From the NCBI RefSeq assembly GCF_002844235.1, contig NZ_PGTS01000001.1, forward strand, positions 558,001-622,000: a DNA stretch of 64,000 nt, in the 5' to 3' direction. The notes below the pieces were generated by a model. The model ran no database searches. It saw nothing but the letters and a program-made list of their open reading frames with translations, and was not told the DNA's origin. This DNA comes from Thalassospira povalilytica. GTDB taxonomy: Bacteria > Pseudomonadota > Alphaproteobacteria > Rhodospirillales > Thalassospiraceae. Both the position numbers and the translations under genes were made by a program. Positions 18,946 through 59,802 of the stretch are shown in pieces; the first letter of the stretch is position 1, and the number at the start of each line of letters is the position of its first letter.

Positions 18946-18949
18946 GAAT

Positions 18950-24805: not shown

Positions 24806-24957
24806 GTCCGGATCTCCTGATGTCGAAGTTTCCAACCCGGTTGGGTTCGTTAAGTCGCTGTAGTCCGGACGGATGAGGGGATGCGAAGTTCAGGTGCATT
24901 TTTTCGGTTCGAGATGCAGAAACTTCTGAACTTGGCGCGCGACGGTTCGTCTTCGGT

Positions 24958-24997: not shown

Positions 24998-27733
24998 ATG
25001 AATGGTTCTCAGGCGGTAAATGCCGCGTCCTTAAACCCATCAAACGAACCGATGTCAAAGCCCGGATTTCGTTCAATTTCAGACGATGCTGTTGGTTTGC
25101 CATGGGCGGTGGAACCCTGGGGAATGACGGGATATCCGCATCAAGTCATTGACCGTTTTTGTAGTGACGATCCCGACCGCCCGGTCATCCTGACAACAGA
25201 TGAGGTTTGGTCACGAAAGCGCCTGAAACAAACGTCAGATGCGATTGCATGCGCCTTGATTGCCAAAGGTGTCGGGCGTGGTGATGTTGTTGTTGTGGCG
25301 CTTCCGAAATCGGCAATGGCGATTGCCGCCATTCTGGGTGTCTGGAAGGCGGGCGGGGCCTTTGTTCCCGTGGACCCACAGCACCCCGAGACCAGAAATC
25401 AGCACGTATTGAAAGACTGCGGTGCACGTTATGCTGTTACCACCGGCAGGGATTTGACGGTTCTTGGTCAGCAGGCGCTTGATGTTGTTCTTGTCGATGA
25501 GCTCGACATGTCGGAAACCGACTTCCTTGCCGTTGCCCCGCTTGCCGATCAGCTTGCCTATATTATCTACACGTCCGGTTCGACTGGTAAGCCCAAAGGG
25601 GTCATGGTGGATCATGGCCCGTTGATTGACCATCTGAATGCTACCGGGCCGATCTATCTGATGGATGAAGATTCGCGAGAATTGCCGTTTCTTCCATTTT
25701 CATCGGATGGCGGTCATGAACGCTGGATCGTGCCGTTGATGGCAGGTGGCAGTATTTTGTTGCCTGACCAATTGCTTTGGACGCCGGAAGACACGGTTAA
25801 CGCCATTCGCAAACATGGCGTGACCCATGCTTCATTTCCGACCAGCTATGTCCATGAGTTGGCAGGATGGCTTCGCGAGAAAGGCCAGACTCTTGATCTG
25901 ACACTTTGTTCCTTTGGCGGTGAAGCGATGCCAAAGGAAACCTTCAACCGGATCGCGCGGGCCATCAATTCTCGTTATCTGATCAACGGTTACGGTCCGA
26001 CGGAAACCGTGATGACACCCATGTTGTGGCGTGTCGATCAGGACCGGCTTTGTGAAACCGTTACAGCCCCGATCGGAAGACCGGTCGGAGATCGTTGGGC
26101 CTATATCCTGGATGCGGATGGCAACGCGGTCGCACCTGGCGAAATCGGTGAGATACATCTTGGCGGCTATTGTGTTGCGCGTGGCTATAACAACTTGCCT
26201 GAAAAGACCGCCGATCTGTTCATTCACGATAATTTTGCGCTCAATGATCATGCACGAATGTATCGCACCGGTGACTTGGGCCGCTTCCTTCCCGATGGCA
26301 TGATCCAGTTTGCCGGACGGGTCGATGATCAGGTTAAAATTCGTGGACATCGTATCGAACCGGCAGAAATTGAAACAGTTTTGCGCGGCTTTGATGATGT
26401 TGCCAACTGTGTCGTCATCGCGGCTGAAATTGCTTCGCGGTTGGAACTGATTGCCTATGTCGTGCCGCGTTCCGGAGCATCGGTTGATACGCGATCAGTT
26501 CGTGCGCGTTTGCAGGACCTGCTGCCAAGCGCCATGGTGCCTGGTTACATCATCGAAATGACGATGTTGCCGCTTAATGCCAATCATAAGGTCGACAAAT
26601 CACAATTGCCGCTGCCGCGTCGCGAGGGGGCCATAACCAAGCCAGCCAATGACGACGAGTCCGCTTTGCTGGAAATTTGGAAATCCGCGCTGGGTCTTGA
26701 TGAAATCGGCGTGACCGATAATTTCTTTGAGATCGGCGGGAATTCGATAACTGCCCTGCGTGTATTGGCAAAAGTTCGTGATCGGTTTCCTGAACGTGAC
26801 GCTGAAATTACAGACCTTTTTAACTTTCCAACCATTCGAAGCTTTTTGTTGGCGCTGTCTGAGCCTGACTGCAAGCCGGGCGCGGATATCGTGCATTTGC
26901 AGCAAGGCAAGCCCGATCAGCCGGTTCTTTATTGCTTCCCCGGGCTGCTTGTCAGCACGCGCGAATATATGAAGCTGGTGAAAAGCCTGGGCAAGGATCA
27001 GTCCGCTGTGGGCTTCATGTGCCACTCGCTTACAGACAATCAGGAACTTGATGTTTCGGTCACCGATATCAGTTCGCGTTATGCAGAGCTGGTTTATCGG
27101 GAAGCGAAGGGACGCACCTGCGCCTTTCTGGGGTGGTCCTGGGGTGGTTTGCTTGCATACGAAGCTGCGCGAATGCTGGGCAACGACATTGATTTGCGCG
27201 TGATCGGGATGGTCGATGTCTGTGACATGGACGATGATTTTGATCTGAACGCACGGCCAAAATTCCAGCCGGGGCAGCGTGCCGAGATTGAAGGGCGCAT
27301 TCGGGCTTGGTTACAGAAAACCAGGATGCGCGAAGAATGGGAACGGCTTCTGGCGCTGATGGATGACCTTGCCTATGCGCAGTTTGTTCATTTTGTGGGG
27401 AAAAGCGAATTCGGGCTGCCCACGGACGGGCCGGGGATTGGCACGCGCGAACATACGTTCTGGGTGCTAATCGATAATGCCCTTGTTTTCCGCCGTCACG
27501 AACTTTGGCCCTATGACGTGCCGATTGCTTCATGGCTTGCCGGCGATACGGTCAGTCGAAAACTTGATCTGATTGATTGGCAGTCACTTTCACGTCTTGC
27601 CGAAGCCCCTGAACATATTCCCGGAACGGATCATCTGACCATCATCGGTGATCCGGCATTCCACAAGCGGTTTGGCAAACGTTTGACGAACGCTTTCGCA
27701 CAACCAGCCGATATTAAGTTTTCAGGCAAATAG
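24998..27733 (+). CDS. Single-module NRPS, adenylation-PCP-thioesterase
   Basis: 911-residue synthetase with no condensation domain. The adenylation domain (about residues 50-540) shows YIIYTSGSTGKPKG, NGYGPTE, YRTGDLGR and NHKVDK. The carrier domain has EIGGNSI with the pantetheine serine at 583. The thioesterase has GWSWGG (Ser714) and the late histidine in GTDHL (His879). I use ATG 24998 (GGAG upstream, after the Fur-like box); longer starts at 24881 and 24914 are in frame. With the N-hydroxylase and acyltransferase it probably activates a hydroxamate amino acid and lets the TE oligomerise or cyclise it, as proposed for trihydroxamate siderophores such as vicibactin. Confidence 0.9.
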   Translation: MNGSQAVNAASLNPSNEPMSKPGFRSISDDAVGLPWAVEPWGMTGYPHQVIDRFCSDDPDRPVILTTDEVWSRKRLKQTSDAIACALIAKGVGRGDVVVVALPKSAMAIAAILGVWKAGGAFVPVDPQHPETRNQHVLKDCGARYAVTTGRDLTVLGQQALDVVLVDELDMSETDFLAVAPLADQLAYIIYTSGSTGKPKGVMVDHGPLIDHLNATGPIYLMDEDSRELPFLPFSSDGGHERWIVPLMAGGSILLPDQLLWTPEDTVNAIRKHGVTHASFPTSYVHELAGWLREKGQTLDLTLCSFGGEAMPKETFNRIARAINSRYLINGYGPTETVMTPMLWRVDQDRLCETVTAPIGRPVGDRWAYILDADGNAVAPGEIGEIHLGGYCVARGYNNLPEKTADLFIHDNFALNDHARMYRTGDLGRFLPDGMIQFAGRVDDQVKIRGHRIEPAEIETVLRGFDDVANCVVIAAEIASRLELIAYVVPRSGASVDTRSVRARLQDLLPSAMVPGYIIEMTMLPLNANHKVDKSQLPLPRREGAITKPANDDESALLEIWKSALGLDEIGVTDNFFEIGGNSITALRVLAKVRDRFPERDAEITDLFNFPTIRSFLLALSEPDCKPGADIVHLQQGKPDQPVLYCFPGLLVSTREYMKLVKSLGKDQSAVGFMCHSLTDNQELDVSVTDISSRYAELVYREAKGRTCAFLGWSWGGLLAYEAARMLGNDIDLRVIGMVDVCDMDDDFDLNARPKFQPGQRAEIEGRIRAWLQKTRMREEWERLLALMDDLAYAQFVHFVGKSEFGLPTDGPGIGTREHTFWVLIDNALVFRRHELWPYDVPIASWLAGDTVSRKLDLIDWQSLSRLAEAPEHIPGTDHLTIIGDPAFHKRFGKRLTNAFAQPADIKFSGK

Positions 27734-27746
27734 AAGGACTTGAACG

Positions 27747-29057
27747 ATGGATAAATTGGATCTTGTCGGGATCGGAATTGGTCCTTTCAATCTTAGTCTT
27801 GCTGCGCAGCTCGACGGGGTTGCTGATGTGTCTTCAATCTTTCTCGAGCAACGTTCTGAATTTGCCTGGCATCCGGATATGATGCTGCCCGGTGTCGAGC
27901 TTCAGACGTCGTTTCTGAAAGATTTGGTGACGCTGACCAATCCGACCAGCAAATGGTCGTTCCTGTCTTACATGGTCGCCCGGAAACGCATGCTTGATTT
28001 TATGAACGCCGATTTCTCTGCTGTGCCAAGGCGGGAATTCGCAGCTTATCTGAAATGGGTTGCAGACCATCTTGATGGTTTGGCCTTTGACAGTTCAGTT
28101 CGCGAAGTCACTTTCGATGGCCAGGACTTTAAGGTTCGCACGGATCATGCAAGTTACGTCGCGAACAATCTTGCCATTGGTGTCGGCAAGCCTGCATTTG
28201 TTCCGGCCTGGGCGCGCCAGTTGCCCAAGCATAAATGCTTCCACACAAGTCAGGCAAAGTCGAATTTGCCAAAGCTGCGCGGCAAGAAAATTGCCGTCAT
28301 TGGCGGGGGGCAGAGTGGTGCTGAACTTGTTGAGTATCTGCTTGGTGGCAACATCAAAGATGTTGAAGAAGTTCTCTGGTTGTCGCGGCGCGACAATTTC
28401 GAACCTCTTGATGATACTCCTTTTGTGAATGAATATTTCACCCCCGGATATGCCGATGTGTTCGCAGGTTTGCCGGATGCCTGCAAACAGGATCTGATGT
28501 CTCGGCAAAAGCTTGCCAGTGATGGTGCATCGCTTTCGACGCTCAAGTCGATTTATCAACTGCTATACCGGCAGCGTTACCTGCAGGAGGGCAATGTTGC
28601 CGGCCGGCTCCTGCCGCAACGTGAAGTCTTTCAGGTTCAGCAAGACGGCGAAGCAATGAGGATTGCTGCCCGGAACGGGCTCAATCAGGATGTCGAGTTC
28701 TTTGATGCGGATGCGCTGATTCTGGCAACCGGTTATGAAACAACATTGCCGGAATTCATGGCGCCACTGCGTTCACGTCTGGAAGTGGGGGCGTCTGGTG
28801 CGTACCGTCTGGATGCGGATTTCCGTGCCCAATGGGATGGACCATCGGACCGCAACATCTTTGTTCAAAATGCCGGCAGGATCGATTTGGGGATCTTTGA
28901 GCCTCAATTAAGCCTGATGGCTTGGCGAAGTGCCAAGATTGTAAATGCACTGACAGGCAAGAACGTCTTCAATCTCGATCAAAATCCACCGATTGTTGAC
29001 TGGGTTGCAGGAAGTGGTGACCTGGCTGGTGGTGCCGTCGTGCAAGCGTGGGGCTAG
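27747..29057 (+). CDS. Siderophore amine N-monooxygenase (lysine/ornithine/diamine hydroxylase)
   Basis: FAD- and NADPH-dependent hydroxylase of the IucD/AlcA/SidA family, 436 residues. FAD site GIGIGPFNLSLA, NADPH site GGGQSG, and family motifs TSFLKDLVTLTNPTS, ATGYE and EPQLSLMAWRSA are present. By eye it is nearer IucD and AlcA than PvdA, so lysine, ornithine or a diamine are all possible substrates. It follows the NRPS after 13 bases with AGAAGGA upstream, forming one operon. Confidence 0.93.
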   Translation: MDKLDLVGIGIGPFNLSLAAQLDGVADVSSIFLEQRSEFAWHPDMMLPGVELQTSFLKDLVTLTNPTSKWSFLSYMVARKRMLDFMNADFSAVPRREFAAYLKWVADHLDGLAFDSSVREVTFDGQDFKVRTDHASYVANNLAIGVGKPAFVPAWARQLPKHKCFHTSQAKSNLPKLRGKKIAVIGGGQSGAELVEYLLGGNIKDVEEVLWLSRRDNFEPLDDTPFVNEYFTPGYADVFAGLPDACKQDLMSRQKLASDGASLSTLKSIYQLLYRQRYLQEGNVAGRLLPQREVFQVQQDGEAMRIAARNGLNQDVEFFDADALILATGYETTLPEFMAPLRSRLEVGASGAYRLDADFRAQWDGPSDRNIFVQNAGRIDLGIFEPQLSLMAWRSAKIVNALTGKNVFNLDQNPPIVDWVAGSGDLAGGAVVQAWG

Positions 29058-29074: not shown

Positions 29075-29108
29075 CTGCAGCCTGTTCGACGTTGGGAACA
29101 GGCTGCAG
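29075..29108. terminator. Hairpin between the N-hydroxylase and orphan sigma genes
   Basis: CTGCAGCCTGTTC and GAACAGGCTGCAG form a 13-base perfect stem with an eight-base loop. It sits between two convergent genes. T-runs are poor, but position and stability favour termination. Confidence 0.7.
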
Positions 29109-29119
29109 ATCGCTAAACC

Positions 29120-29683
29120 TTATGCCGGACGTGTCAGTTCTACATTATGAAGAGCCTGACGGCATCGCTGATCGGCCTGATGGATATATGCGCAAACAGA
29201 TGCTTTGGAGACGCCGATATCCTTTGCTATGACGTTTTGTGCGAAACCATCCACGCGGTGACGGTAAAATGCAGTGCGCACGTGCGATGGAAGTTCCTTC
29301 AACGCATTTTCGATGATGCGTAGGGCTTGGCAACCACTTAGGCGTGCCTCCGGGCAGTTGGCGTTTCCAGCCGGACAAAATTCGGTTTGGTCACTGTCAG
29401 CGAAAAGAGTGCGTTCGAACGTAATTTGGCGGACCTTGTCGATTGCCATGTTTCGTGTAATTCGCGTAATGAAGGCACTTGGTGTGGTGACCTCGTCATC
29501 GATCTTTGCTGTAAGCAGTTTGGCATAGGTATCTTGAACAATGTCATCTGCCAGATGGGGACATTTTACGATAGATCGCGCCACGCGTCGCAATTTCCCT
29601 TCTTGATTTTTGGCGATGGTTAGCAAGGCTTGTCGTTGAAGTTGGCCTTTGGGAAGTGGATCAGTTTGGTTCGCTTGATGCAT
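29120..29683 (-). CDS. FecI-type ECF sigma factor without adjacent FecR
   Basis: 187-residue extracytoplasmic-function sigma factor. Region 2 shows HLADDIVQDTYAKLL and ITRNMAIDKVRQ; region 4 shows ALKELPSHVRTAFYRHRVDGFAQNVIAKDIGVS (given as pieces) with a helix-turn-helix. The start is ATG 29683; a TTG two codons earlier is possible. It is the second FecI-type gene of the cluster and lacks an anti-sigma partner in the window. A Fur-like box and a copy of the 28-base element lie upstream. Confidence 0.85.
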   Translation of the reverse strand: MHQANQTDPLPKGQLQRQALLTIAKNQEGKLRRVARSIVKCPHLADDIVQDTYAKLLTAKIDDEVTTPSAFITRITRNMAIDKVRQITFERTLFADSDQTEFCPAGNANCPEARLSGCQALRIIENALKELPSHVRTAFYRHRVDGFAQNVIAKDIGVSKASVCAYIHQADQRCRQALHNVELTRPA

Positions 29684-29715
29684 TTCCAAGTGTCTCCGTT
29701 GGTTTGCTCGTTAGT

Positions 29716-29734
29716 GAAAATAATAGTCACTTGC
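29716..29734 (-). promoter_or_regulatory. Fur-like box of the orphan sigma gene
   Basis: Plus-strand GAAAATAATAGTCACTTGC, 15 of 19 identical to the receptor box at 37050 and 13 of 19 to the classical Fur consensus. It ends 33 bases upstream of the ATG at 29683. Confidence 0.6.
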
Positions 29735-29786
29735 AAATCTGGGACGTGGTTTGCACTCTCCACTGGGTCGATCACCATTTGTCATT

Positions 29787-29818
29787 CGGACGGATCTGAC
29801 GCACATCAGATCCGTCCG
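29787..29818. terminator. 13-base hairpin after fhuF
   Basis: CGGACGGATCTGA and TCAGATCCGTCCG with a six-base loop. It lies 92 bases beyond the fhuF stop and probably ends the receptor-fhu transcript. It is also immediately downstream of the predicted -10 of the 28-base element at 29829-29856, so a transcript from there would begin with this hairpin. Confidence 0.65.
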
Positions 29819-29828
29819 TTGTTCATAT

Positions 29829-29856
29829 GACGGGATTTTCGCAGAGACTCAGTAAG
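29829..29856 (-). promoter_or_regulatory. 28-base element, copy 1 (candidate ECF sigma promoter)
   Basis: 24 of 28 bases are identical to 37082-37109. On the minus strand it reads CTTACTGAGTC, a variable middle, then AAATCCCGTC. The two conserved blocks have the spacing of -35 and -10 elements, and CGTC is a common ECF -10 core. It points toward the orphan sigma gene. Confidence 0.55.
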
Positions 29857-29909
29857 GAATTCTGCAGTGCGGATCTATGCCGCAGGAAAGCGGGCTACCT
29901 AATGGAAAT

Positions 29910-30701
29910 CTAAAGCTTTGCCAGCGGGCAGGTCGGGCAAATGTCGACGGATGTCAGCAGGTAGCGAAGGCAACAGACGCGTCTTGATGGACTGCCATCC
30001 TCGGATTGTTTGGTGCTATATGGATTTGCCATCGGGTTTCGATTGCCATCAGGTCGCTTGGCATCGCTGATCAATGGCAAAAGCGATATCCGGGTGTTTT
30101 TCAGGACATGTTTCTCAACGTAAGAAACAACAACACCGATATTTGACCAGAACACTTTTGGTGAGACCTTTGACGATGCAGCCAGTGACGCAACCATCGG
30201 TTCGAGATGGCCGTCAATCAGGCTTTCAAGATGTGTCCAAGGATCAGGTGCAGCTGATTGGTCTTTCATTTCAGACAATTGCCAATCTCGAATGTCGAAG
30301 CCTGTAGGACATTGATTGTCATCTGTTTTCAGGCTGACGAAACCGGGCTGAAATGGGAGTACGACTTCGCCCGCCGCGGCCATAACCAGCATCGGGGATA
30401 AAAATATTCCGAAATACCATTGTGACCACATCGAAATGGCAGCCCGGCGATCATCATTCGGATATTTTGCCTGGCAATAGTGATCAAGAATTGGTGCGAG
30501 ACATTCAGGATCATGGAGTGCGAAGCAGTCAATTCCGTTGCTTTGCGCGGCCAGAATATGATGTCGGTCACCGAGCCCCTGATAGGGACCCTGAAACAGG
30601 TCGGTCTTGATATTCGACAGTGCGCGGGTGATAGGTGCATCGCCGACGGAAGAAGAAGCGTTGTTTTCAGAACCGTTCTGGAGGGGAAGCGAGTTCATCA
30701 T
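29910..30701 (-). CDS. fhuF: FhuF-type ferric-siderophore reductase
   Basis: 263-residue cytoplasmic [2Fe-2S] protein that reduces ferric hydroxamates to release iron. The C-terminal cluster ligands are CC and CPTC in RVCCLRYLLTSVDICPTC, the unusual CC-x10-C-x2-C of FhuF. The start overlaps the fhuB stop (ATGA). It is the last gene of the receptor-fhuC-D-B-F run. Confidence 0.92.
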   Translation of the reverse strand: MMNSLPLQNGSENNASSSVGDAPITRALSNIKTDLFQGPYQGLGDRHHILAAQSNGIDCFALHDPECLAPILDHYCQAKYPNDDRRAAISMWSQWYFGIFLSPMLVMAAAGEVVLPFQPGFVSLKTDDNQCPTGFDIRDWQLSEMKDQSAAPDPWTHLESLIDGHLEPMVASLAASSKVSPKVFWSNIGVVVSYVEKHVLKNTRISLLPLISDAKRPDGNRNPMANPYSTKQSEDGSPSRRVCCLRYLLTSVDICPTCPLAKL

Positions 30702-32707
30702 GTTGCACCTCTTCCGATGCGTAAAAGCAGCCAGACCATGATTGGTCCTGCGATGATGGCCGCCATCAGTCCGGCCGGGATTTCCCAGGGGAAGAACAAC
30801 ATCCGCCCAAGCCAGTCAGCGGCGATCATCAAGGCCGCCCCGATCAGTGCTGCCCCGATCATATGCGACAATGCATGACGCAATCCGGCCAGTTTTGCCA
30901 GATGTGGTGCAATCAGACCCGCAAAGCTTAGAGGGCCGACCAATAAAGTTGCCGCCGCTGTAAGGATCGATGCAAACAGCAACATCACCCCGCGCGAGAG
31001 TGAAAGATCGACACCAAGGGACTTTGTTGTCACCGGCCCCAATGGAAACAGGTTAAGCCAACGGGCAAAGGCCGGCAGGACGGGCAAGGAGGCAACCGCG
31101 ATGCTTGCCAGTATCGTCGCACGGTCAAATCCAAGGCCGTAAGTAGACCCGGAGCTCCAAGCCAGCAGGCGTGTTGCACGGGGATCACCACCGGCCATCA
31201 GAAATGCGATAAATCCGTCAAACAATGCGCTAATCGCTATACCTGCGATCAAAATTCGTTCCGGTGCATAGCCGGACTTGCGGGTGAGCGCAAAGATCGC
31301 CCCCAAGGTGATAAAGGCGCCAATCGTTGCGCCCGCGATTTGCAACCAGGCCGTTGGGGCATCCATCGAAAACACGATCGCGATCATCCCGATTGCCGCA
31401 CCTGCACTGACGCCAAGGCTTTCGGGACTTGCCATCGGGTTTGCCGTCATGCGTTGTAGCACGGTACCCGCAATCGCCAGCATGGTCCCGGCTGCCATCG
31501 CACCGAGAATACGCGGACCGCGCCAAGGCCAAACGGTTTCAAGCGCGCCATTCCATTGAAGTTCCCAGTCACCGTGAACGTCACGACCGATCAGGATCGC
31601 ACCCGTCACCACCACGAACACACCAGTCAGAACAAGCAAATGGTTTCGAAGGTGACCCCGGTCAGCTGTGCTGACGGCGATCGTGTTTTGCGGCGGTTGT
31701 GCATCACTTCGAAGTTGCCGGATCAGGATGATCAAAAGCGGGCCACCCAGAATACCCGTCAGGGCACCCGCAGGTACCAGTGTCCCGATATATCCCGATA
31801 AAACCTGCACGCCCTGGTCTGCGGCACATAACAGCAAGGCGCCAAAAGCCGCAGACATCATAAGTTTTGTTCGTAATCGCCTGATGCCAAGCATACGTGT
31901 GATGGCCGGACCGGCCAGCCCGACAAATCCGATGATGCCAACTGCGGCAACAATTGTCGCCGTTAGCCAACACCCGATCAAAAGACATAGCAGTCGCAGT
32001 CGCGCTGGCGACGCGCCAAGGACAGTTGCCTGATGATCACTGAGATTAAGCATCTCAAGCGGGCGGGCCAGGGTAGCTGTAATTGCGGCGCCCACCATGA
32101 CCTTTACGGTCAGAGGTTCAAGGATATACCAACCGTCTTGGGTAAGGTCGCCACTTCCCCATATAAAAAGACTTTTGAGCCATTCATGGTGGATAATCGC
32201 CAGCGCAGTTGTCACAGCCCCGCAATAGAGCGCGATGATCATGCCCGTCAGGATGACGATCAACGGCGAAAAGCCACTGCGACGCGCCAAGGCAAAAACC
32301 AGAAATCCGACACAGAGGGCGCCCAACAGTGCGATCGTATCCTGACCAATCACGAGTGCGCCTGGCACATAAAGGGTCACCAGTGTCAGCACCAGCTTTG
32401 CGCCGCCCGCAAGCCCCAATGTAGACGGCGATGCCAAGGGGTTCTTTAACGTGTGCTGAAACAGTCCACCGGCAATCGCAAGCCCGGCACCCGCGACAAG
32501 CGCAATCAAAAAGCGGGGGACCCAGCCCTGAGTGAGCAACAACGATCGCGTATCGGATCCGGTGGCAAGGTCGATTATTTCGGTCGGATTCAAGCTGCCG
32601 ACCTCAATGTCGAGCGACAGCAGGGTTAACACAGCTGAAAGGACGCACAGCACAGCCGGAACCGCATTTAGTTGGATGGGGTGTTTATACATGGCTTGGC
32701 TTGTCAT
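30698..32707 (-). CDS. fhuB: FhuB double-length iron-siderophore ABC permease
   Basis: 669-residue inner-membrane permease made of two fused BtuC-like halves, as in E. coli FhuB; one chain supplies both transmembrane domains. The halves repeat similar motifs, for example LKNPLASPSTLGLAGGA and MTANPMASPESLGVSAGA. It overlaps fhuD and fhuF by four bases each. Works with FhuC and FhuD to import ferric hydroxamates. Confidence 0.95.
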   Translation of the reverse strand: MTSQAMYKHPIQLNAVPAVLCVLSAVLTLLSLDIEVGSLNPTEIIDLATGSDTRSLLLTQGWVPRFLIALVAGAGLAIAGGLFQHTLKNPLASPSTLGLAGGAKLVLTLVTLYVPGALVIGQDTIALLGALCVGFLVFALARRSGFSPLIVILTGMIIALYCGAVTTALAIIHHEWLKSLFIWGSGDLTQDGWYILEPLTVKVMVGAAITATLARPLEMLNLSDHQATVLGASPARLRLLCLLIGCWLTATIVAAVGIIGFVGLAGPAITRMLGIRRLRTKLMMSAAFGALLLCAADQGVQVLSGYIGTLVPAGALTGILGGPLLIILIRQLRSDAQPPQNTIAVSTADRGHLRNHLLVLTGVFVVVTGAILIGRDVHGDWELQWNGALETVWPWRGPRILGAMAAGTMLAIAGTVLQRMTANPMASPESLGVSAGAAIGMIAIVFSMDAPTAWLQIAGATIGAFITLGAIFALTRKSGYAPERILIAGIAISALFDGFIAFLMAGGDPRATRLLAWSSGSTYGLGFDRATILASIAVASLPVLPAFARWLNLFPLGPVTTKSLGVDLSLSRGVMLLFASILTAAATLLVGPLSFAGLIAPHLAKLAGLRHALSHMIGAALIGAALMIAADWLGRMLFFPWEIPAGLMAAIIAGPIMVWLLLRIGRGAT

Positions 32708-33660
32708 GATGCGAATTCCCCATGATCTGCACTTTGCGCTGTCAGACTGCTGGCAAGAAGGTCCGCAAACCGCCCGGCGGCATAGAGCCCGCCAAATGTC
32801 GCAACTGGTGGCATCGTGATCAGTCCAAAGCGCTTGATGGAGGGGAGCTCCGAAAGGATCGGGCTATATTGAATGGCGCGGTCAACAGTGTCGGGAACCG
32901 GTTCGATCGCGATGAGAGCTGCGTCTGAATATTGCGCGATCTGATCAATTGTTACGGTGGCAAAACCCCAGTGATTGGTGGGGCCTGTCCAGGCATTTTT
33001 GATGGGAAGTCGATCAATCACATCCTGCATCAGGCTGTTTTGCCCATAGACGCGCATATGGCGCGGCGAAAGCATGCTAGTGACAAGCACCGAGCCGGCC
33101 CGTGACGTGGTCAGCCTGCTTGCCGCCTGATCTATCTTACTTTGGGTATTGGAAATCAGTGTATCGGCAGCATGTGGGTGCCCCGTAACGTCAGCAATTT
33201 TTCGTGCCGCTGCCATCGCATTCAGGAAGGGTGTTTTCTTCCTGTCATAAATGTCGATTTTCTCAATCGGGGCCAGATCTGAAAGACTGGCATACTGGTT
33301 TGCATAGAAACTGCTGGTCAATATCAGGTCAGGCTCAAGTTGCGCCAATCTTTCCAGACTTGGTTGAAAGCGTGCCCCAAGATTGATGACACTTTCCGGA
33401 ACTTCCGGCTTCTGAACCCAGGCGCGATAGCCAGGCACATCGGCCATGGCCAGTGGAACAATCCCCATGGCAAGTGCGGTTTCTGCAATTGCCCCATCGG
33501 CGATGACCAATCGTTTGACAATGTTCGCCATAGCAGGATGTGCGAAGGTTGCAGGCAGAATTGGCGCAAGCGTTGCGAAGGTGTAGGCACCTGTAATGCC
33601 CTTGAGAAAAAGCCGTCTGGAGTATGCGCGATGGTTTTCATGCATTGAAATTGTCCCCAT
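32704..33660 (-). CDS. fhuD: FhuD periplasmic ferric-siderophore binding protein
   Basis: 318-residue class III substrate-binding protein. The N-terminus carries a twin-arginine pattern, SRRLFLKG, followed by a hydrophobic stretch, so Tat export is likely. The body shows LEPDLILTSSFYANQY and the end GGLYAAGRFADLL. Start ATG 33660 overlaps the fhuC stop (TGATG). Confidence 0.9.
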   Translation of the reverse strand: MGTISMHENHRAYSRRLFLKGITGAYTFATLAPILPATFAHPAMANIVKRLVIADGAIAETALAMGIVPLAMADVPGYRAWVQKPEVPESVINLGARFQPSLERLAQLEPDLILTSSFYANQYASLSDLAPIEKIDIYDRKKTPFLNAMAAARKIADVTGHPHAADTLISNTQSKIDQAASRLTTSRAGSVLVTSMLSPRHMRVYGQNSLMQDVIDRLPIKNAWTGPTNHWGFATVTIDQIAQYSDAALIAIEPVPDTVDRAIQYSPILSELPSIKRFGLITMPPVATFGGLYAAGRFADLLASSLTAQSADHGEFAS

Positions 33661-34463
33661 CACACATTGGCAAGGGCAATCGGGTGCCCGTGGGCAGGGT
33701 GGGGATGCACCAGCATATCCATACCAAAGATGGTACGAAGCATTTCTGACTGCATGATTGTTGAAGGCGGCGCATCTGCAATCAAATGACCGCCTTTAAG
33801 AGCGACAATCTGATCGGCAAATCGGGATGCCAGATTGATGTCATGCAAGACCGCAATAATGCAAAGGCCATCCTGTTTGCAAAGCTGTTCGAGTAAAAGC
33901 AGGATTTCGTATTGATGCGAAAGGTCCAATGCGGAAATCGGCTCATCAAGCAAAAGACAGGGGGCTTGCTGTGCAAGTGTAACCGCGATCCAGGCCCTTT
34001 GGCGTTCGCCACCTGAAAGGGTGTTGACCGCGCGTTTGCGAAGCGGGCCTAGTCCAGTCAAAAGGATAGCGCGTTCAATAGCTTGTTTGTCATGTTCGCG
34101 CAGGCGGCCAAACGGTCCATGCCATGGGTAACGTCCAAGTGCAATCAGCTCTTCGACGGTATAATCTGCGCCGTGCCCCGGGTCCTGTGCAAGATAGGCA
34201 ACGCTTTTGGCAAATTCGCGCGCACTAAACTGTTCCACGTCATTCCCGTCAAGCGTGACAGATCCACTTGTTGGTTTGTTCAGTCCGGCGAGCATTTTAA
34301 GTGCGGTGGATTTTCCGGACCCGTTATGTCCGACAATCGCCGTCAGGCAGCCTGCGCGAAAAGTCACGGATATGTTGTTAAGGAGTGTCACACCCTGGGC
34401 CGTTTCAAAGCAGGCCTTTTGCATTCCAAGGACAGCGGGACGATCAGATATATCCATGGCCAT
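33660..34463 (-). CDS. fhuC: FhuC iron-siderophore ABC ATPase
   Basis: 267-residue ATPase of the FhuBCD importer. Walker A GHNGSGKST, signature LSGGERQR, Walker B CLLLDEPISALD and switch VLHDINLA are intact. It is 90 bases downstream of the receptor gene, separated by two hairpins. Confidence 0.95.
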   Translation of the reverse strand: MAMDISDRPAVLGMQKACFETAQGVTLLNNISVTFRAGCLTAIVGHNGSGKSTALKMLAGLNKPTSGSVTLDGNDVEQFSAREFAKSVAYLAQDPGHGADYTVEELIALGRYPWHGPFGRLREHDKQAIERAILLTGLGPLRKRAVNTLSGGERQRAWIAVTLAQQAPCLLLDEPISALDLSHQYEILLLLEQLCKQDGLCIIAVLHDINLASRFADQIVALKGGHLIADAPPSTIMQSEMLRTIFGMDMLVHPHPAHGHPIALANV

Positions 34464-34487
34464 AATTTGCTCTCGATAAACGCAGAA

Positions 34488-34545
34488 AATCCGCGGTGAA
34501 CGCGGATTGCGAGATTGGGTCCGGGGCGCAATCGCGCGCCCCGGA
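34488..34545. terminator. Two hairpins between the receptor gene and fhuC
   Basis: Arms AATCCGCG (34488-34495) with CGCGGATT (34501-34508), and TCCGGGGCGC (34520-34529) with GCGCCCCGGA (34536-34545). In the direction of transcription the second hairpin encountered is followed by TTTTC. They may partially terminate, so that receptor mRNA exceeds importer mRNA. Confidence 0.55.
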
Positions 34546-34553
34546 ATATTCGG

Positions 34554-37013
34554 TTACCAGTCGTATTTCAGAGTTGCGGCGATGGTCTGTCCTTCGATCT
34601 GGTAGCAGTAACCATTGTTACAGATACTGGCATCGTTATCGGCAAGGTTGGTGCCGTTAATCGCAAGGGTCAGGCCTTCAAGCTTGTTACTAAGTGCCGC
34701 AAAGTCATAGCGGATCGCAGCATCAAGCAGCGTATAGGGCTTGTTCTTGCTCGTGTTGGTATAGTTGGCATAGCTTGAGTCGGTGTAGCGAACACCGGCA
34801 CCAAAGCCCCATCCATCAAGCGGGCCTTCATTGAAGGTGTAGTTCGCCCAAGTGGATGCTGTTTTTTCCGGTGTTACGAGCGGGGTGTTGCCGCGATAGG
34901 AACCTTTGACGATTTTGGCATTGTTGTAGGAAAGGTTCCCGACCAGGCTAAGGTTCTCGGTTACATTGGCGCTGCCTTCGACCTCAAGGCCACGCGTTTC
35001 CAGTTTGCCGATTGAGTCATAGTACGAACCGATAGACCCGCTATAGCCAGCATAGCGGGCGACATTGTCCTCGGTCAGGCGATAGGCGGAAACCGTGAAG
35101 AAGCCATCAAATCCGACCGGTTCGAATTTGATTCCGGCCTCATACTGCTCGCCCTCGGTCGGGGTGAGCATTTTGCCTTCGGAATTCTGACTGGTGCTAG
35201 GCAAAAAGGACGTACCCCAACTGACATAGGGGGATATGCCGTTATCAAAGGCATAAAGCGCACTGAGGTTAAAGGTCGTTGCCGTGTTGTAGTCGGTCGA
35301 ACCTTTATTGGTCAGTCGGCTGATACGTTTGCGTTCAGCATAGTCAAACCGCACACCACCATTCAGATGCCAGTTGCCAAGTTCAATCTGGTCCTGAACA
35401 TAGATGCCGGATTGATTGTAGGTTACATCATCAAATGTTGTGTAGGCTGGTGTCGTGCCGGAAATCGACCGGTTCGGATCATTGAGATAGAAGATGTAGT
35501 CACTGAGTACACCGCTTGAACCGAAACGGTAATCCGACTTGGAATACATCAGATCAAGACCGGTCAGGACTTCGTGTTTGGCATCGGCAGTCTCGAAAGT
35601 CGTGATGACCTGGTTGTCGACCTGCGCGCTCCAGAGGGTTTCCTCAACTGCCTGTGCTGCGCGATGGTATTCCGTATTGGAGTTCTTCCACCCGCCGCCG
35701 GTCACGCCGCCAGTCAGGTAGCGAGCCTCAAGATCGAAATACCCGAAGCGCGCTTTCTGCGCCAAAGTGACAGGCGCGTTGTTCAGGTCATGGGTCAAGT
35801 CATAGCCGACTTGGAACTGATCCTGCTTCTGGTAGTCGTAATCCGCGTCACTGGTCCGGTAATCAAGGATCGCGCCATTAAGGTTCAGAAGGGTTGCCGA
35901 GGCGTCCGTTTCGTCATGCTGGAAAAGGGTATAGATGGTCAGATCGGTATCCGCGTTGGGTTGCCAACGAATTGTTGGCGCGAACATTTGCCGATCATCC
36001 TGAATTTCGTTGCTGGTTTCGCCAAAACGCGCCATTCCGACAAAGCGTGATGCCCAGGTCCCGTTTTCTGTCAGGCCAAGATTGTAATCAAACCCGCCTT
36101 CGTATGAGTCGGTGTTGGTGAAGCGGCCATAGACATTGTTTTTTGCACCAAGGTGGGGGCGTTTGGTAACGCTGTTGAGCAAGCCCCCCGGTGTTGATTG
36201 CCCGTAAAGAGCTGCGGTGGGACCCTTAACGATTTCAAGCTGTTCAAGGCTGTAGGGTTCGGTGCGAAACGTCGCATAGACGCCTGTCATCTGGCGCAGG
36301 CCGTCACGGTAATCGCCATAAATATGCACAGGGTAGCCACGAACATAAACCTGATCAAAGCGCGGATCATATCCGTAATTGTTGGTTGCTACCCCGGCGG
36401 TATAAGCAACTGCATCTTCGATGCTGGCAACGGCGCGGTCTTCGATTTCCTGGCCTGATACGACGGAAATACTTTTTGCTGTTTCAATCAGGGCTTTGCT
36501 GGTTTTTGTACCTGCACTGCTTCGCGTGGCGACATAGCCATGTGCGAGGTCCTCTGAGTCCTGGGCGTTTGCTTCGACATAGACCGGGTCAATGACGTTT
36601 GCTCCGCTGCTGTCTGATGTTTCCAGCTTGGTAAGGGAAACCGTATTCTTGCCAGTAAAGCGATAGCTGACGCCACTGCCGGAAAGAAGGATTCTCAATG
36701 CATCGGCAGGGGAATACGTGCCGTTAAGGGCCGTGCTTTGCAATCCGGCAACCCGATCAACATCATAAAAGAGTTGCAGATTTGTCTGGTTGGCGAAGGT
36801 CAAAAGCGCCTGATTAAGGTCCTGAGCCGGGATGGAAAAATCGATTGCGGATGATGTGTCACTTTGCGTTTCCGTATTTTGCTGCGCGGTTGCAGGCGTC
36901 GATACCCCGGCAACAACAATACCCGCAGCCAATGCGACCAAGCTGACGCTATGTGCCAGACGATGGCCAAACCCGTTTACCAATCCGGCTTTGCCGGTTT
37001 TTATTACCTGCAT
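34554..37013 (-). CDS. TonB-dependent ferric-siderophore receptor with signalling (STN) domain
   Basis: 819-residue outer-membrane transducer. A signal peptide ends near STPATA. An STN domain follows (IDFSIPAQDLNQALLTF to YRFTGKNTVSL), which signals to FecR. Then come a plug (AKSISVVSGQEIEDR, VKGPTAALYGQSTPGGLLN) and a 22-strand barrel ending ATLKYDW with the terminal aromatic. I use ATG 37013 with GGGGGT upstream; a frame start at 37064 lies within the Fur-like box. It belongs with FecI-FecR just upstream and is the likely receptor for the siderophore made here. Confidence 0.94.
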   Translation of the reverse strand: MQVIKTGKAGLVNGFGHRLAHSVSLVALAAGIVVAGVSTPATAQQNTETQSDTSSAIDFSIPAQDLNQALLTFANQTNLQLFYDVDRVAGLQSTALNGTYSPADALRILLSGSGVSYRFTGKNTVSLTKLETSDSSGANVIDPVYVEANAQDSEDLAHGYVATRSSAGTKTSKALIETAKSISVVSGQEIEDRAVASIEDAVAYTAGVATNNYGYDPRFDQVYVRGYPVHIYGDYRDGLRQMTGVYATFRTEPYSLEQLEIVKGPTAALYGQSTPGGLLNSVTKRPHLGAKNNVYGRFTNTDSYEGGFDYNLGLTENGTWASRFVGMARFGETSNEIQDDRQMFAPTIRWQPNADTDLTIYTLFQHDETDASATLLNLNGAILDYRTSDADYDYQKQDQFQVGYDLTHDLNNAPVTLAQKARFGYFDLEARYLTGGVTGGGWKNSNTEYHRAAQAVEETLWSAQVDNQVITTFETADAKHEVLTGLDLMYSKSDYRFGSSGVLSDYIFYLNDPNRSISGTTPAYTTFDDVTYNQSGIYVQDQIELGNWHLNGGVRFDYAERKRISRLTNKGSTDYNTATTFNLSALYAFDNGISPYVSWGTSFLPSTSQNSEGKMLTPTEGEQYEAGIKFEPVGFDGFFTVSAYRLTEDNVARYAGYSGSIGSYYDSIGKLETRGLEVEGSANVTENLSLVGNLSYNNAKIVKGSYRGNTPLVTPEKTASTWANYTFNEGPLDGWGFGAGVRYTDSSYANYTNTSKNKPYTLLDAAIRYDFAALSNKLEGLTLAINGTNLADNDASICNNGYCYQIEGQTIAATLKYDW

Positions 37014-37049
37014 TACGCAGACCCCCATTCTCGAAAGTTTTTCCGTAAC

Positions 37050-37068
37050 GCAAATGATTGTCATTTGC
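37050..37068 (-). promoter_or_regulatory. Fur-like box of the receptor-fhu operon
   Basis: GCAAATGA-TTG-TCATTTGC is a perfect 8+3+8 palindrome and matches the Fur consensus at 13 of 19 positions. It covers about +8 to +26 of the transcript predicted from the 28-base element at 37082-37109. Confidence 0.7.
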
Positions 37069-37081
37069 TTGTATTGGATGA

Positions 37082-37109
37082 GACGGGATTTGCGTTCAGA
37101 CTCAGTAAG
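37082..37109 (-). promoter_or_regulatory. 28-base element, copy 2 (candidate ECF sigma promoter of the receptor)
   Basis: On the minus strand CTTACTGAGTC is followed by AAATCCCGTC at -35/-10 spacing, 24 of 28 identical to the copy at 29829. It lies between fecR and the receptor gene, where a FecI-dependent promoter is expected; transcription would start near 37076. Confidence 0.6.
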
Positions 37110-37189: not shown

Positions 37190-38197
37190 TTAGTAAAGAA
37201 CGGTCATTAGCGGTGTTATCGAGATATTTTGTACCCCAAGTTCCCGTGCAATCAGTTCCAGTCCGGCCTGGGGATCGGTCATGTCAAAGACACCGCTGAC
37301 AAGCTTGCGTGCCGCAGTCTCGTTCGCAATCATGATTTTGCCGCGCTGGTACCGCGAGAATTCCGAGACAACTTCGCGCAGTGTGACGCGATCAAATATC
37401 AGTTTGCCTTTTTGCCAACTAAGCGCACGGTCGGGTTTGATTGTGGACACCGGGCTGATTGAATGGCGGTTATAACGGACGGCCTGATTTTCCGCCAAGA
37501 TCGCTATTTGCTCTGATGTTGCCGAGTTTGGCTTGACTTCAACCTGATGTTCCAACACGGCAACATTGGTGTGGTCATCAAAGCTGTTGACGATAAACCG
37601 GGTGCCCAACGCCTGCACCTGGCCATGCGGCGAGGTGACGGTGAAAACACGCTTGTTCGCACGTTCCATGGGGACAGCTTGAAAATCGGCAAGCCCGCTA
37701 ATCAATGCGATGTTTCGGATTTGATCGGTAAACTGAACCGCGATTGCACTATCGGGGCCCAAGGTGACGGTACTGCCATCCTCAAGTGTAATGGCCCGCA
37801 CTTCCCCGACAGCAGTGTGATAATCAGCGCTGAGGAAAATGGTCGGGTCACCAAACATAATGCGCGTAGAAGCAACCGCCAGCAGCAAGCTTGCGGCAAG
37901 TGCGACGTAGCTCCAGCGGCGTTTCTTTGCCGAGGGGGCCTTGGATGACGGTTTTGCAGGATGTTTAAGCTCGACAACCTTTGATGAAGGGCTTTCGGTT
38001 GTGCTATCTTTTGATCGGATTGCTTCATCCATTACAGCAAGCGCATTGTTGGCCTCAATGAAAGCTTGCTGGTTTTCCGGTGCGGCATTCAGCCAAATGT
38101 GGAGCTCTTCATGTTCAGATGTGCTGAGGTCGCCATTGATCATTTTCGCAACCCAATCGGCCGCGGCCAGATCAATGTTTTTCTGTGTTTCTTGCAT
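37190..38197 (-). CDS. fecR: FecR-type anti-sigma/sigma regulator
   Basis: 335-residue inner-membrane protein. The N-terminal DUF4880-like region (AADWVAKMINGDLS, WLNAAPENQQAF) binds the sigma factor. One membrane helix (WSYVALAASLLLAVAS) and the periplasmic FecR domain follow (TAVGEVRAITLEDGSTVTLG, LGTRFIVNSF). It relays receptor occupancy to FecI. ATG 38197 is preferred; an in-frame GTG lies at 38221. It follows fecI and precedes the receptor, the standard order. Confidence 0.92.
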   Translation of the reverse strand: MQETQKNIDLAAADWVAKMINGDLSTSEHEELHIWLNAAPENQQAFIEANNALAVMDEAIRSKDSTTESPSSKVVELKHPAKPSSKAPSAKKRRWSYVALAASLLLAVASTRIMFGDPTIFLSADYHTAVGEVRAITLEDGSTVTLGPDSAIAVQFTDQIRNIALISGLADFQAVPMERANKRVFTVTSPHGQVQALGTRFIVNSFDDHTNVAVLEHQVEVKPNSATSEQIAILAENQAVRYNRHSISPVSTIKPDRALSWQKGKLIFDRVTLREVVSEFSRYQRGKIMIANETAARKLVSGVFDMTDPQAGLELIARELGVQNISITPLMTVLY

Positions 38198-38299
38198 CTG
38201 GCTCACGTTACCAACCCGCACTTGCCGACAACCCGGACAAAGCGTCCTTATCTGTTGGACGATAAAACTGCAAGAAATGCGTAAAAACTTTGTGCAATT

Positions 38300-38872
38300 T
38301 CATGACCGGCTTTCCCGCATGCGCTTCATCACATGGGCAATAGCGCGCGCGACATGTTTCTGCACGGAGCTGTCAGAAATGCCGAGCTGTTCAGCCGTTT
38401 CGCGATAGGTCAGCCCTTCAACGCGCACAAGAGTAAAGATTTCGCGCGTTTTTTCAGGCAGCTCATCAAGCGCGCGGCGTACATATTCAAGCTCAGACTG
38501 CCCTCCGACGATCTGTTCTGGCGAGGGTGAATTATTGGGAATGACATCAAGGGGAATGTCATCGGCACCGGCAACCGGGTTTCGCTTTTGCGCCCGAACG
38601 TGATCAATCGCAAGATTATGGGCGACGCGGTACAGGTAGGAACGGACATGGGTGACTTCGTTTGCCTTATCGGGGCTGGCATGTTCCGACACACGCAAAA
38701 ATGTCTCCTGTGTCAGATCCATTGCTGTATCTGCATCACGCAAAAGGCGTGTCAGATAAATCTGCAATTCCCTTTGGTGAGACTGAAAGAGTTTTTTGAG
38801 GTCAGTTATTGCCAAGTCACATACCTGACTAAGGTGATGGGTTTTTATGGAGTTATCAAAAATAATACTCAT
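38300..38872 (-). CDS. fecI: FecI-type ECF sigma factor paired with FecR
   Basis: 190-residue sigma factor: region 2 DTAMDLTQETFLRV and YLYRVAHNLAIDHVR, region 4 LPEKTREIFTLVRVEGLTY with the helix-turn-helix AEQLGISDSSVQKHV. The start is doubtful. ATG 38872 lies inside a Fur-like box, and a promoter-like TTGCGA with TAACTC 17 bases later would put the start at TTG 38815 (sequence AITDLKKLFQSH follows). It is expected to drive the receptor operon. Confidence 0.9.
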   Translation of the reverse strand: MSIIFDNSIKTHHLSQVCDLAITDLKKLFQSHQRELQIYLTRLLRDADTAMDLTQETFLRVSEHASPDKANEVTHVRSYLYRVAHNLAIDHVRAQKRNPVAGADDIPLDVIPNNSPSPEQIVGGQSELEYVRRALDELPEKTREIFTLVRVEGLTYRETAEQLGISDSSVQKHVARAIAHVMKRMRESRS

Positions 38873-38876
38873 TCGC
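38858..38876 (-). promoter_or_regulatory. Fur-like box of fecI-fecR
   Basis: Plus-strand AAAAATAATACTCATTCGC matches the orphan sigma box at 15 of 19 positions. It overlaps the apparent fecI start, consistent with Fur blocking a promoter located there. Confidence 0.55.
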
Positions 38877-38888
38877 AATTAATTAGTT

Positions 38889-40060: not shown

Positions 40061-40080
40061 ATTTGTTGTGTTTGGGTAAG

Positions 40081-40965
40081 ATGCTTGCTGAACGGATCAG
40101 GGATGCCCGGGCTGTCTTGGCACGGGCCGAAAAAAGTTGGAGGGGAAATGTATCCTGTTTTCCCGGCAAGGCAGGCGGTGTGGTCGGCTGCCTGTTTGGC
40201 GGTATGGCCTTGTCACGCAATATCAGCATCGGCGGTTTTGTGCCGGTTGGTATGCATGAGGTGATCTGTGCCCATGATGGTGGGGCGGCGTCGATTTTGG
40301 CCTGGTATCTGGCCCGGATTGCTCCGCAAGAGCAGAGGGCAGGATACGGAAGGTTACAAGGCTGCGAGCAAGACAGATCGCAAGGAAAACCGCAAAACAA
40401 CGCACAGGACCATGCCCAGTCAAACCGGTCTGTTTTCTGGGTTCGGCAAAGACGGGCGATTGATCAGGGCGGGTTTTATCATCTGGCCTTGCCGATCGGG
40501 CAAGCAACGGATCCGCCGCCCTTGATGATGACAGTCGATCAGCAGGATATCGCCTTATGGAGCTGTGAGGAGGCCGCCAAATCCGGGCAGGTCGCATCGA
40601 TTATTCTGGAAACCACCGATTACGACCTGACATCGGCAAGGCGTCTGCAACTGGCCTGTGAAGCGGGTGGAACCCGGATGATTGTTTTGCGTCGGGCATT
40701 TCATGGCGGGCGGTTGATGCCATCAAGTGCACTGACACGCTGGAAGATCGAACCGGCCCCAAGCACGCCAGATACCAAGACAGGGAATATTCATCATCTC
40801 AGCCTGATCGGGGGACGCGGGGTCCGACCGGGAAGCTGGAAAGTCAAAACCGATGCATCAACGTTTTCTTTATCTGTGGTTGACCCACTGGAAGACGGAT
40901 TGTCAGAAAATCAGCAGGACCACGGCCGATACCCGCCACAAGGTGGACCAGGACGTGTCATCTGA
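40081..40965 (+). CDS. imuA: ImuA, RecA-like mutasome protein
   Basis: 294-residue protein of the ImuA/SulA-like COG4544 family, distantly related to RecA, needed for DnaE2-dependent damage-induced mutagenesis. Recognisable parts are GGFVPVGMHEVICAHDGGAAS and the segment ARRLQLACEAGGTRMIVLR (given as pieces). The start ATG 40081 is 20 bases after the LexA box. The 3' end overlaps imuB by 113 bases. Confidence 0.87.
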   Translation: MLAERIRDARAVLARAEKSWRGNVSCFPGKAGGVVGCLFGGMALSRNISIGGFVPVGMHEVICAHDGGAASILAWYLARIAPQEQRAGYGRLQGCEQDRSQGKPQNNAQDHAQSNRSVFWVRQRRAIDQGGFYHLALPIGQATDPPPLMMTVDQQDIALWSCEEAAKSGQVASIILETTDYDLTSARRLQLACEAGGTRMIVLRRAFHGGRLMPSSALTRWKIEPAPSTPDTKTGNIHHLSLIGGRGVRPGSWKVKTDASTFSLSVVDPLEDGLSENQQDHGRYPPQGGPGRVI

Positions 40966-42490
40966 AAACAGCAACCCCACCGAACCGGCAGATGATGCTG
41001 ACGGGCCACATGTCATCACGCGCGCCGATCACAAAGGGGTTCTGGTGTGCGGCCTGAATGCCCGGGCCCGGGACGCGGGATTATACGGGGGCATGCGTCT
41101 GTCCGATGCGCGCAGTATCCTTCCCGGTTTGCACGACAGCCCCGAGGATGAGGCGCTTTATGACATGCATCTGGCGGGATTGATCCGTTTGATGGATCGA
41201 TACAGCCCCTGGGTCGCGCCGGATCGGGAATTGCATGCGCACGGCCTGCAAGGCGATGGCGGATTATGGCTGGAAATCACCGGCGGCAGTCATTTGTTTG
41301 GCGGGGAAACCGCCATGATCGGTCACATCCTGCGTGATGTGAAATCCCGGGGCTATGGCGCCAGAATTGCCATTGCCGATACGGCCGGGGCCGCTTGGGC
41401 TGCTGCGCGCCATCATCCTGGTGCGCCGGCCGAGCATATCCTGTCCTTGCCCGCCGATCATGAAATCGCGGCAGGATTTCCGGTTTCGGCCCTGCGTCTG
41501 TCGGATGACATCATCGCCCTGTTGTCGCGGCTTGGCCTTAAGCAACTGGGCGATATTACACCCTTGCCGCGCGCCAATATCACCACCCGGCTGGGACCCG
41601 ATGTGTTGCGCCGTCTTGATCAGTTTTATGGGCGCTTGCCCGAACATCTGAACTTCAAATTGCCCGATACCCCCTGGCTGATCAAACAAAGCTTTGGCGA
41701 ACCGCTTGGCGATGCGGTCAATCTGGCACTGGCGATCGAAGACATGACCGGCAAGCTGTGCGAGATGCTTGCGGCTGAAAATCTGGGCCTGCGGCGGATA
41801 TGTGTCCGTTCGATCCGGGTGGATGGTCATGCCCATACCATCACCACGACAACCGGGACCCCGTGTCAGTCCGCACCGCATATTCTGCGATTGCTGGGCG
41901 AAAAGATGCCCGGTGTCGATACCGGTTTCGGTATCGAGAAGATCATTGTCCATGCGCCGTGGGTCGAACATGTCGCCTTTCGCCAGGCCCGCCTTGACCA
42001 TCAGCAGGATGACAGCAGTGACGGGCTTGCACTGGGGCAGCTGATTGACCGGATTTGTCATCATCTTGGACCAAATGACATTCTTTATCGTCCGGCCCAT
42101 CACGCAAGCCACATGCCCGAACGGGCCGCCATTCGCCAATCCCCGGTTGGCGGGGCAAGGCCGGCACGGCTGCCAGATGCCCCGTTGCCAAAACGTCCTG
42201 TCAGATTGCTGGAGCCCCCCGAGCCGGTGGAAGTCATCGCACGCAGTGCCAATGGCGCGCCAACGCGGCTGCGCTGGCGCAAAATGATTGTGGATATCGC
42301 CTGTGCCGAGGGGCCTGAACGCATCTGTCCGGAATGGTGGGGGCATCTTGATGACGATCATTACGCCCTGTCGCGAATGACACGCGACTATTTCCGGATC
42401 CGTGATCAGAAAGGCCGGATGTTATGGCTGTTGCGCACCGGACATGCGGGGCAGGATATCTGGTCAATCCACGGGATTTTCGGGGGATGA
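40853..42490 (+). CDS. imuB: ImuB, catalytically inactive Y-family polymerase
   Basis: 545-residue Y-family-like protein that links DnaE2 to the sliding clamp. It begins MHQRFLYLWLTHWKTD, as ImuB proteins do, and has LNARARDAGLYGGMRLSDAR. The acidic catalytic triad of active Y polymerases is not evident, as known for ImuB. The C-terminal region is long and basic. The start lies in the imuA coding region in another frame. Confidence 0.9.
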   Translation: MHQRFLYLWLTHWKTDCQKISRTTADTRHKVDQDVSSENSNPTEPADDADGPHVITRADHKGVLVCGLNARARDAGLYGGMRLSDARSILPGLHDSPEDEALYDMHLAGLIRLMDRYSPWVAPDRELHAHGLQGDGGLWLEITGGSHLFGGETAMIGHILRDVKSRGYGARIAIADTAGAAWAAARHHPGAPAEHILSLPADHEIAAGFPVSALRLSDDIIALLSRLGLKQLGDITPLPRANITTRLGPDVLRRLDQFYGRLPEHLNFKLPDTPWLIKQSFGEPLGDAVNLALAIEDMTGKLCEMLAAENLGLRRICVRSIRVDGHAHTITTTTGTPCQSAPHILRLLGEKMPGVDTGFGIEKIIVHAPWVEHVAFRQARLDHQQDDSSDGLALGQLIDRICHHLGPNDILYRPAHHASHMPERAAIRQSPVGGARPARLPDAPLPKRPVRLLEPPEPVEVIARSANGAPTRLRWRKMIVDIACAEGPERICPEWWGHLDDDHYALSRMTRDYFRIRDQKGRMLWLLRTGHAGQDIWSIHGIFGG

Positions 42491-42494
42491 TGCC

Positions 42495-59800: not shown

Positions 59801-59802
59801 TC

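Follow-up and report, generated by a model that had tools for sequence, protein, structure and literature searches.

A predicted FecI-class promoter element shared by a siderophore receptor operon and an orphan sigma factor gene in Thalassospira

The siderophore island and its shared element

The window analyzed here is a 64,000-nucleotide stretch of the Thalassospira povalilytica genome (contig NZ_PGTS01000001.1, positions 558,001 to 622,000 of the forward strand), and its subject is a 28-base element that occurs twice within a siderophore island, conserved in relatives, at approximately 19.6-39.8 kb of the window. The minus strand carries, in order, fecI, fecR, the first copy of the element, the gene for a TonB-dependent receptor bearing an STN signalling domain, fhuC, fhuD, fhuB, fhuF, the second copy of the element, and the gene for a second sigma factor of the extracytoplasmic function (ECF) type, referred to as sigma2. 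Past sigma2 are found genes for a non-ribosomal peptide synthetase (NRPS) and an N-monooxygenase on the plus strand and, divergent from them, genes for an acyltransferase, a MATE exporter, and a pyridoxal phosphate (PLP) enzyme. The features are listed below in window coordinates.

38300-38815, minus strand: fecI, ECF sigma factor, from a conserved TTG start (the list of open reading frames runs it to 38878)
37190-38221, minus strand: fecR, sigma regulator adjoining fecI, with PF04773 above cut-off
37082-37109, minus strand: predicted FecI-class promoter element of the receptor-fhu operon, core CTTACTGA-N10-AAATCCCGTC
34554-37013, minus strand: TonB-dependent hydroxamate-siderophore receptor with STN signalling domain (PF07660, PF07715, PF00593)
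29910-34463, minus strand: fhuC, fhuD, fhuB, and fhuF-like genes
29829-29856, minus strand: the same element upstream of sigma2, core exact in genomes G000, G010, G016, and G017
29120-29683, minus strand: sigma2, orphan ECF sigma factor, nearest model PRK07037 (below cut-off)
24998-29057, plus strand: NRPS (24998-27733, start by alignment) and N-monooxygenase (27747-29057)
21172-24805, minus strand: acyltransferase (start by alignment), MATE exporter, and PLP enzyme genes

The fecI product matches PF04542 and PF08281 above cut-off, which correspond to ECF sigma regions 2 and 4. The receptor has a conserved start at 37013, placed by alignment and read as GTG in G006, and its STN domain (PF07660) covers residues 96-146 of the listed open reading frame. 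The sigma2 protein scores 120.6 bits against its best NCBIfam model, PRK07037, for which the cut-off is 190; its gene is neighbored by fhuF and by the N-monooxygenase/NRPS genes, and no anti-sigma gene adjoins it.

An initial annotation of this DNA, made from the sequence alone, held that positions 29829-29856 and 37082-37109 agree at 24 of 28 bases, and both the coordinates and the count are correct. It also had the pair facing its genes, as is found: both copies lie on the minus strand, directed toward the receptor gene and the sigma2 gene. Identity falls away outside the element, to only 13 of 40 positions in the upstream flanks and 14 of 40 in the downstream flanks, and plain duplication is rejected on this ground as the origin of the pair. 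The best match obtained in 2000 Markov-1 resamples of the two gaps was 21 of 28, and when direct pairs of at least 24 of 28 were sought all-versus-all across the window, the 29 other diagonals all fell within a repetitive gene at 47-54 kb. The genome search suggested in the initial annotation, widened to three mismatches and applied to the organism's own genome (4.44 Mb), recovered just these two sites and no third copy, with no match for the reversed control. Of the blocks originally described as conserved, the second holds, whereas the first is conserved in relatives solely as CTTACTGA; its GTC end varies at the sigma-gene site, and the core is therefore taken as CTTACTGA-N10-AAATCCCGTC. Matches to this core with two mismatches in G024, G043, and G017 (C1:41604), and with three mismatches in G040, look like chance, each lying inside an open frame of more than 150 codons.

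Distribution of the element and its predicted reader

The exact core occurs before the receptor operon in six of 29 Thalassospira genomes (G000, G006, G010, G016, G017, and G022), and a FecI orthologue of at least 76% identity is found in exactly the same six, the next best FecI reaching 41%. This co-occurrence supports the earlier proposal that the element defines a promoter class read by the cluster's FecI, and an ECF-type promoter recognized by that factor is most likely what the element represents. Orthologues of sigma2 (at least 75% identity) were found in five of the 25 genus genomes searched for it; the genomes outside that search, G041-G044, yielded no exact element, no FecI orthologue, and no N-monooxygenase. 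The element on the sigma2 side is retained in three of the four relatives having sigma2, and in the fourth, G022, the assembly reads N at that place. In G010, where sigma2 is 75% identical, the sigma-side element holds all 18 core bases with an altered spacer and altered flanks. Such retention fits the further suggestion that sigma2 is wired as a FecI target in a cascade, and on these comparisons the sigma2 gene is probably controlled by FecI.

Genome G006 has a complete receptor side with an intact element, and its sigma-side element carries two changes among the 18 core bases; no sigma2 orthologue was found there among the 25 genus genomes searched, nor an N-monooxygenase among 11 genomes searched, five of which were positive. 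It looks like a natural loss of sigma2 in which the uptake side was kept. The place of sigma2 in G006 (C23:29134-30120; L056, L085) is occupied by a transposase-like frame, recognized by eye, that reaches the contig end.

The association with FecI extends beyond the genus. Relatives were assessed with a strict pattern, TTAC[CT]G[AG]NTC-N12/13-CGTC, and a loose form, TTAC[CT]G-N15/17-CGTC. FecI homologues of 47-51% identity in five other genomes of the class (385 searched) have the strict pattern in the fecR-receptor gap, and so does a paralogue in the organism's own genome (L120, 40% identity). The strict pattern was written after its 12 positives and the first negatives had been viewed, so that it fits by construction all 12 of the FecIs of at least 40% identity used to write it (six from Thalassospira, the five class genomes, and L120); it was found in none of 13 others, comprising eight own paralogues, three distant FecIs, and rows L136 and L138, added to the first 11. 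Among ten loci retrieved once the pattern had been fixed, all five with close FecIs (42-53%) were positive and all five with distant FecIs negative. The later positives were strict in G428 and G430 (both of the genus of G226) and in Paracoccus denitrificans, and loose in Novosphingobium RL4 and Azospirillum TSA2s. Eight plasmid loci were examined out of 34 plasmid records having a FecI relative; five with FecIs of 36.5-39.6% identity gave no match in the gap; at one of these loci the loose form matches elsewhere, on the opposite strand. The order search around G139 covered two genomes. Pattern-positive members cluster in a tree of 26 sigma proteins, requiring three changes versus a shuffled mean of 8.9. 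The elements, their conservation, and their link to a FecI clade, together with the second motif described below, are established at the level of sequence.

Sites of the FecI class also lie between fecI and fecR, at L142:2047 and L143:4006 in G428 and Azospirillum TSA2s. The site in G428 is a second one, and that in Azospirillum TSA2s is of the loose form, with an IS6 transposase following fecR and no receptor found. Their position suggests separate activation of fecR in these two organisms.

One copy of the element precedes sigma2 itself, and classical ECF factors are described as auto-regulatory (PMC8908255), so that sigma2 rather than FecI could be imagined to read both copies, controlling its own gene and the receptor. 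The distribution speaks against it: G006 has the element, and FecI relatives of other families have the pattern beside them, in genomes that gave no sigma2. The sigma2 search, at an E-value of 1e-25, covered 385 class genomes and gave none in the 384 others (mostly with the eight best candidates per genome scored), which makes sigma2 unlikely as the general reader of the pattern. When homologues were sought outside the genus, 23 of the 25 loci from named genomes proved at most 31% identical; within the genus, T. tepidiphila has the sigma2 gene. As the synthesis genes moreover bear a different motif, we regard sigma2 as a very improbable reader of the element. The length and good conservation of the element might also be expected of an operator for a DNA-binding regulator in place of a promoter, but two blocks at fixed spacing, one of them a CGTC block, a fixed orientation to the gene, and the association with FecI relatives across families make an operator barely credible.

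Candidate sigma2 promoters, leader, and iron control

If FecI reads the element before sigma2, what sigma2 reads and what else may govern its gene become relevant. The following features bear on both.

24926-24951, plus strand: candidate sigma2 promoter of the NRPS/N-monooxygenase operon, CTGAACTT-N14-CGTC
24868-24893, minus strand: candidate sigma2 promoter of the acyltransferase/MATE/PLP operon, CTGAACTT-N14-CGTC
29787-29818, minus strand: hairpin of 14 pairs in the sigma2 leader, covarying between G000 and G010
29711-29736, minus strand: Fur-like iron-control block of sigma2, identical to the fecI block at 20 of 26 positions
38853-38878, minus strand: Fur-like iron-control block of fecI, conserved in six of six genomes
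37050-37068, minus strand: Fur-box-like palindrome downstream of the receptor promoter, 14 of 19 positions of the Fur consensus (equaled in 0 of 500 resamples)

The gap between the NRPS and acyltransferase genes measures 192 bases and holds CTGAACTT-N14-CGTC on each strand. Both sites, in the form CTGAA[CT]TT-N14-CGTC, are present in all five genomes with sigma2, one G010 site reading CTGAATTT, and the exact motif has one more match in the organism's own genome, inside an open frame. The motif shares CGTC with the FecI element and differs from it in the -35 block, as would be expected of two sigma factors with unlike -35 preferences, and CTGAA[CT]TT-N14-CGTC is the likely target of sigma2.

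The leader of sigma2 (123 bases) folds with a z-score of -3.86. Between G000 and G010, eight pairs of its hairpin, whose arms were paired by hand, are changed on both sides, two on one side, two are unchanged, and two are broken; 11 of the 14 pairs are kept in G006, which lacks sigma2. No Rfam match was obtained in the window from 29100 to 30000, and the reading of the hairpin as an intrinsic terminator was dropped for lack of a T run after it on the sigma2 strand. Because the hairpin would begin a few bases past the predicted transcription start, it may most simply be read as a stabilizing 5' stem of the sigma2 mRNA.

Closer to the sigma2 start, the identity of its iron-control block to that upstream of fecI was equaled in none of 150 resamples. 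An overlapping stretch, 29710-29728, agrees with the Fur consensus at 13 of 19 positions (P 0.054 or 0.018), as does the fecI block (P 0.046), and both are putative sites. The motif, the iron-control block, and the hairpin are additions to the cascade as first proposed.

The same iron-control block supplies an alternative in which the sigma-side element is weak or vestigial and sigma2 is set mainly by this block and by read-through from fhuF, as for classical orphan iron-starvation sigma factors. The fhuF gene ends 54 bases before the sigma-side element on the same strand, and OrbS and MbaS are described as acting through control of their own genes' transcription (PMC8908255). A vestigial element would hardly be expected to retain all 18 core bases across relatives despite a variable spacer and flanks, nor to show two core changes just where sigma2 was not found (G006, a single case), and this alternative is judged unlikely.

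Several observations nevertheless weigh against a chain running from FecI through sigma2 to synthesis. With an iron-control block near its start and a position downstream of fhuF on the same strand, sigma2 need not have the FecI-class element as its main input. Because the receptor promoter of L120 is similar, the element might be read by a second FecI. The pattern-positive FecIs do not form one clade, as the negatives G156, G247, G290, G291, and G369 fall among them, and the loose site of Azospirillum TSA2s does not stand before a receptor gene. The sigma2 motif, finally, had been picked by eye beforehand, and the frequencies of resamples containing a pair of identical 8-mers at this spacing from CGTC (0.06%) or two GAAC-N15/17-CGTC sites (0.22%) are flattering for that reason.

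Elsewhere in the window, nosZ and nosR, for nitrous oxide reduction, lie beside the island at 14732-19065. At 40063-45797, a pair of frames that match nothing in Pfam at 1e-6 precedes a gene resembling that for DNA polymerase III alpha, an order reminiscent of an imuA-imuB-dnaE2 cassette. Positions 47258-61164 include, near genes for a type I secretion ABC transporter and an HlyD-type adaptor, a frame of 2572 codons that contains numerous long internal repeats and whose product resembles an adhesin or a secreted repeat protein.

Proposed circuit and comparison with known systems

Under low iron, fecI would be de-repressed, and sigma2 likewise through its similar iron-control block. The receptor, on engaging its ferric hydroxamate siderophore, would signal from its STN domain via FecR to yield active FecI, which would transcribe the receptor-fhuCDB-fhuF operon from the element at 37082 and the sigma2 gene from the element at 29829; sigma2 would in turn direct the two divergent synthesis operons from CTGAA[CT]TT-N14-CGTC promoters. 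The outcome would be a serial circuit, from receptor and FecR through FecI and sigma2 to synthesis, in which uptake feeds forward to synthesis. Initiation by FecI and sigma2 at these sites, the siderophore signal, and repression by Fur are what we infer from the arrangement. Whether the FecI-class promoter, the iron-control block, and the covarying hairpin together gate the sigma2 gene within a serial cascade is evenly poised in our judgment, and the entire chain to synthesis with its leader controls, in which synthesis would trail successful uptake with a delay, could equally well hold or fail.

In Escherichia coli, fecI is followed by fecR and then by the receptor gene, which has a promoter in front of it, and the fecA-type -35 is GGAAAT. 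The island shares this order and promoter position, together with the ECF sigma factor, adjoining FecR, STN-bearing receptor, and conserved element before the receptor (a predicted promoter) that characterize FecI/FecR/FecA signalling. Differences are that no second sigma gene is involved in the E. coli system, and that GGAAAT does not occur in the four island gaps, where neither GGAAAT-N17-TC nor GAAAAT-N15/19-CGT was found as a -35 type. Judged by its predicted promoters, the FecI group of the island, with TTAC[CT]G, is a different promoter class within this mode of signalling, for which the E. coli trio is tabulated in a review (PMC9249621).

Among alphaproteobacteria, the RseP-FecR-FecI system of Sinorhizobium fredii likewise places a FecI/FecR pair over receptor and siderophore synthesis, its FecI being described as acting directly on receptor and petrobactin genes (PMC8822346). 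By contrast with the island, the portion of that account drawn on here has a single sigma factor working directly on one long operon and names no second one (PMC8822346). For the FecI of S. meliloti, the cited text states that its authors found no promoter motif (PMC6180224). The orphan ECF genes orbS and mbaS of Burkholderia (former ECF09) resemble sigma2 in belonging to an NRPS siderophore cluster, in having an iron-controlled promoter, and in the absence of an anti-sigma gene alongside; orbS, however, is described as Fur-controlled at a sigma70 promoter, with no FecI input reported in the sections cited (PMC8908255), whereas sigma2 has a predicted FecI-class promoter.

A close resemblance in parts is to FpvA/FpvR/FpvI/PvdS of Pseudomonas, with one receptor, one anti-sigma factor, a FecI-like receptor sigma factor, and a second ECF factor for synthesis. 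According to the cited accounts, FpvR holds back both FpvI and PvdS in parallel, and after its degradation active PvdS has to be synthesized anew (PMC4256889; PMC5733041; PMC2235872). Pyoverdine control is described as branched, pvdS and fpvI having Fur boxes, while in the island the FecI-class promoter before sigma2 would make control serial. Neither is the PvdS-type iron-starvation (IS) box, TAAAT-N16/17-CGT, found in the four island gaps, including that between the NRPS and acyltransferase genes; CTGAACTT-N14-CGTC stands at the synthesis promoters instead. With PRK07037 below cut-off and no IS box at these promoters, sigma2 would work like PvdS yet is not filed as PvdS-like (former ECF09). 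Since FpvR is reported to bind and inhibit both FpvI and PvdS (PMC4256889; PMC5733041), the island's FecR might similarly restrain FecI and sigma2, the shared element topping up the level of sigma2. No FecR of its own adjoins sigma2, which may still bind the island FecR. Such branching is judged quite improbable as the main arrangement; it can coexist with the serial cascade.

In that review's table of such systems, FpvI/PvdS is the sole entry having two sigma factors (PMC9249621), and no report of a FecI-class promoter before a second siderophore sigma gene was recognized in the titles and abstract openings of the open-licence literature. The island would represent a new variant of cell-surface signalling, with two sigma factors in series, and TTAC[CT]G ... 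CGTC provides a pattern for a FecI group of several alphaproteobacterial families that may be used for target prediction. In well-studied pyoverdine control, two sigma factors likewise serve one siderophore, and the pathway branches at the anti-sigma factor; the series arrangement would, if true, behave differently, with delay, amplification, and FecI-dependent synthesis.

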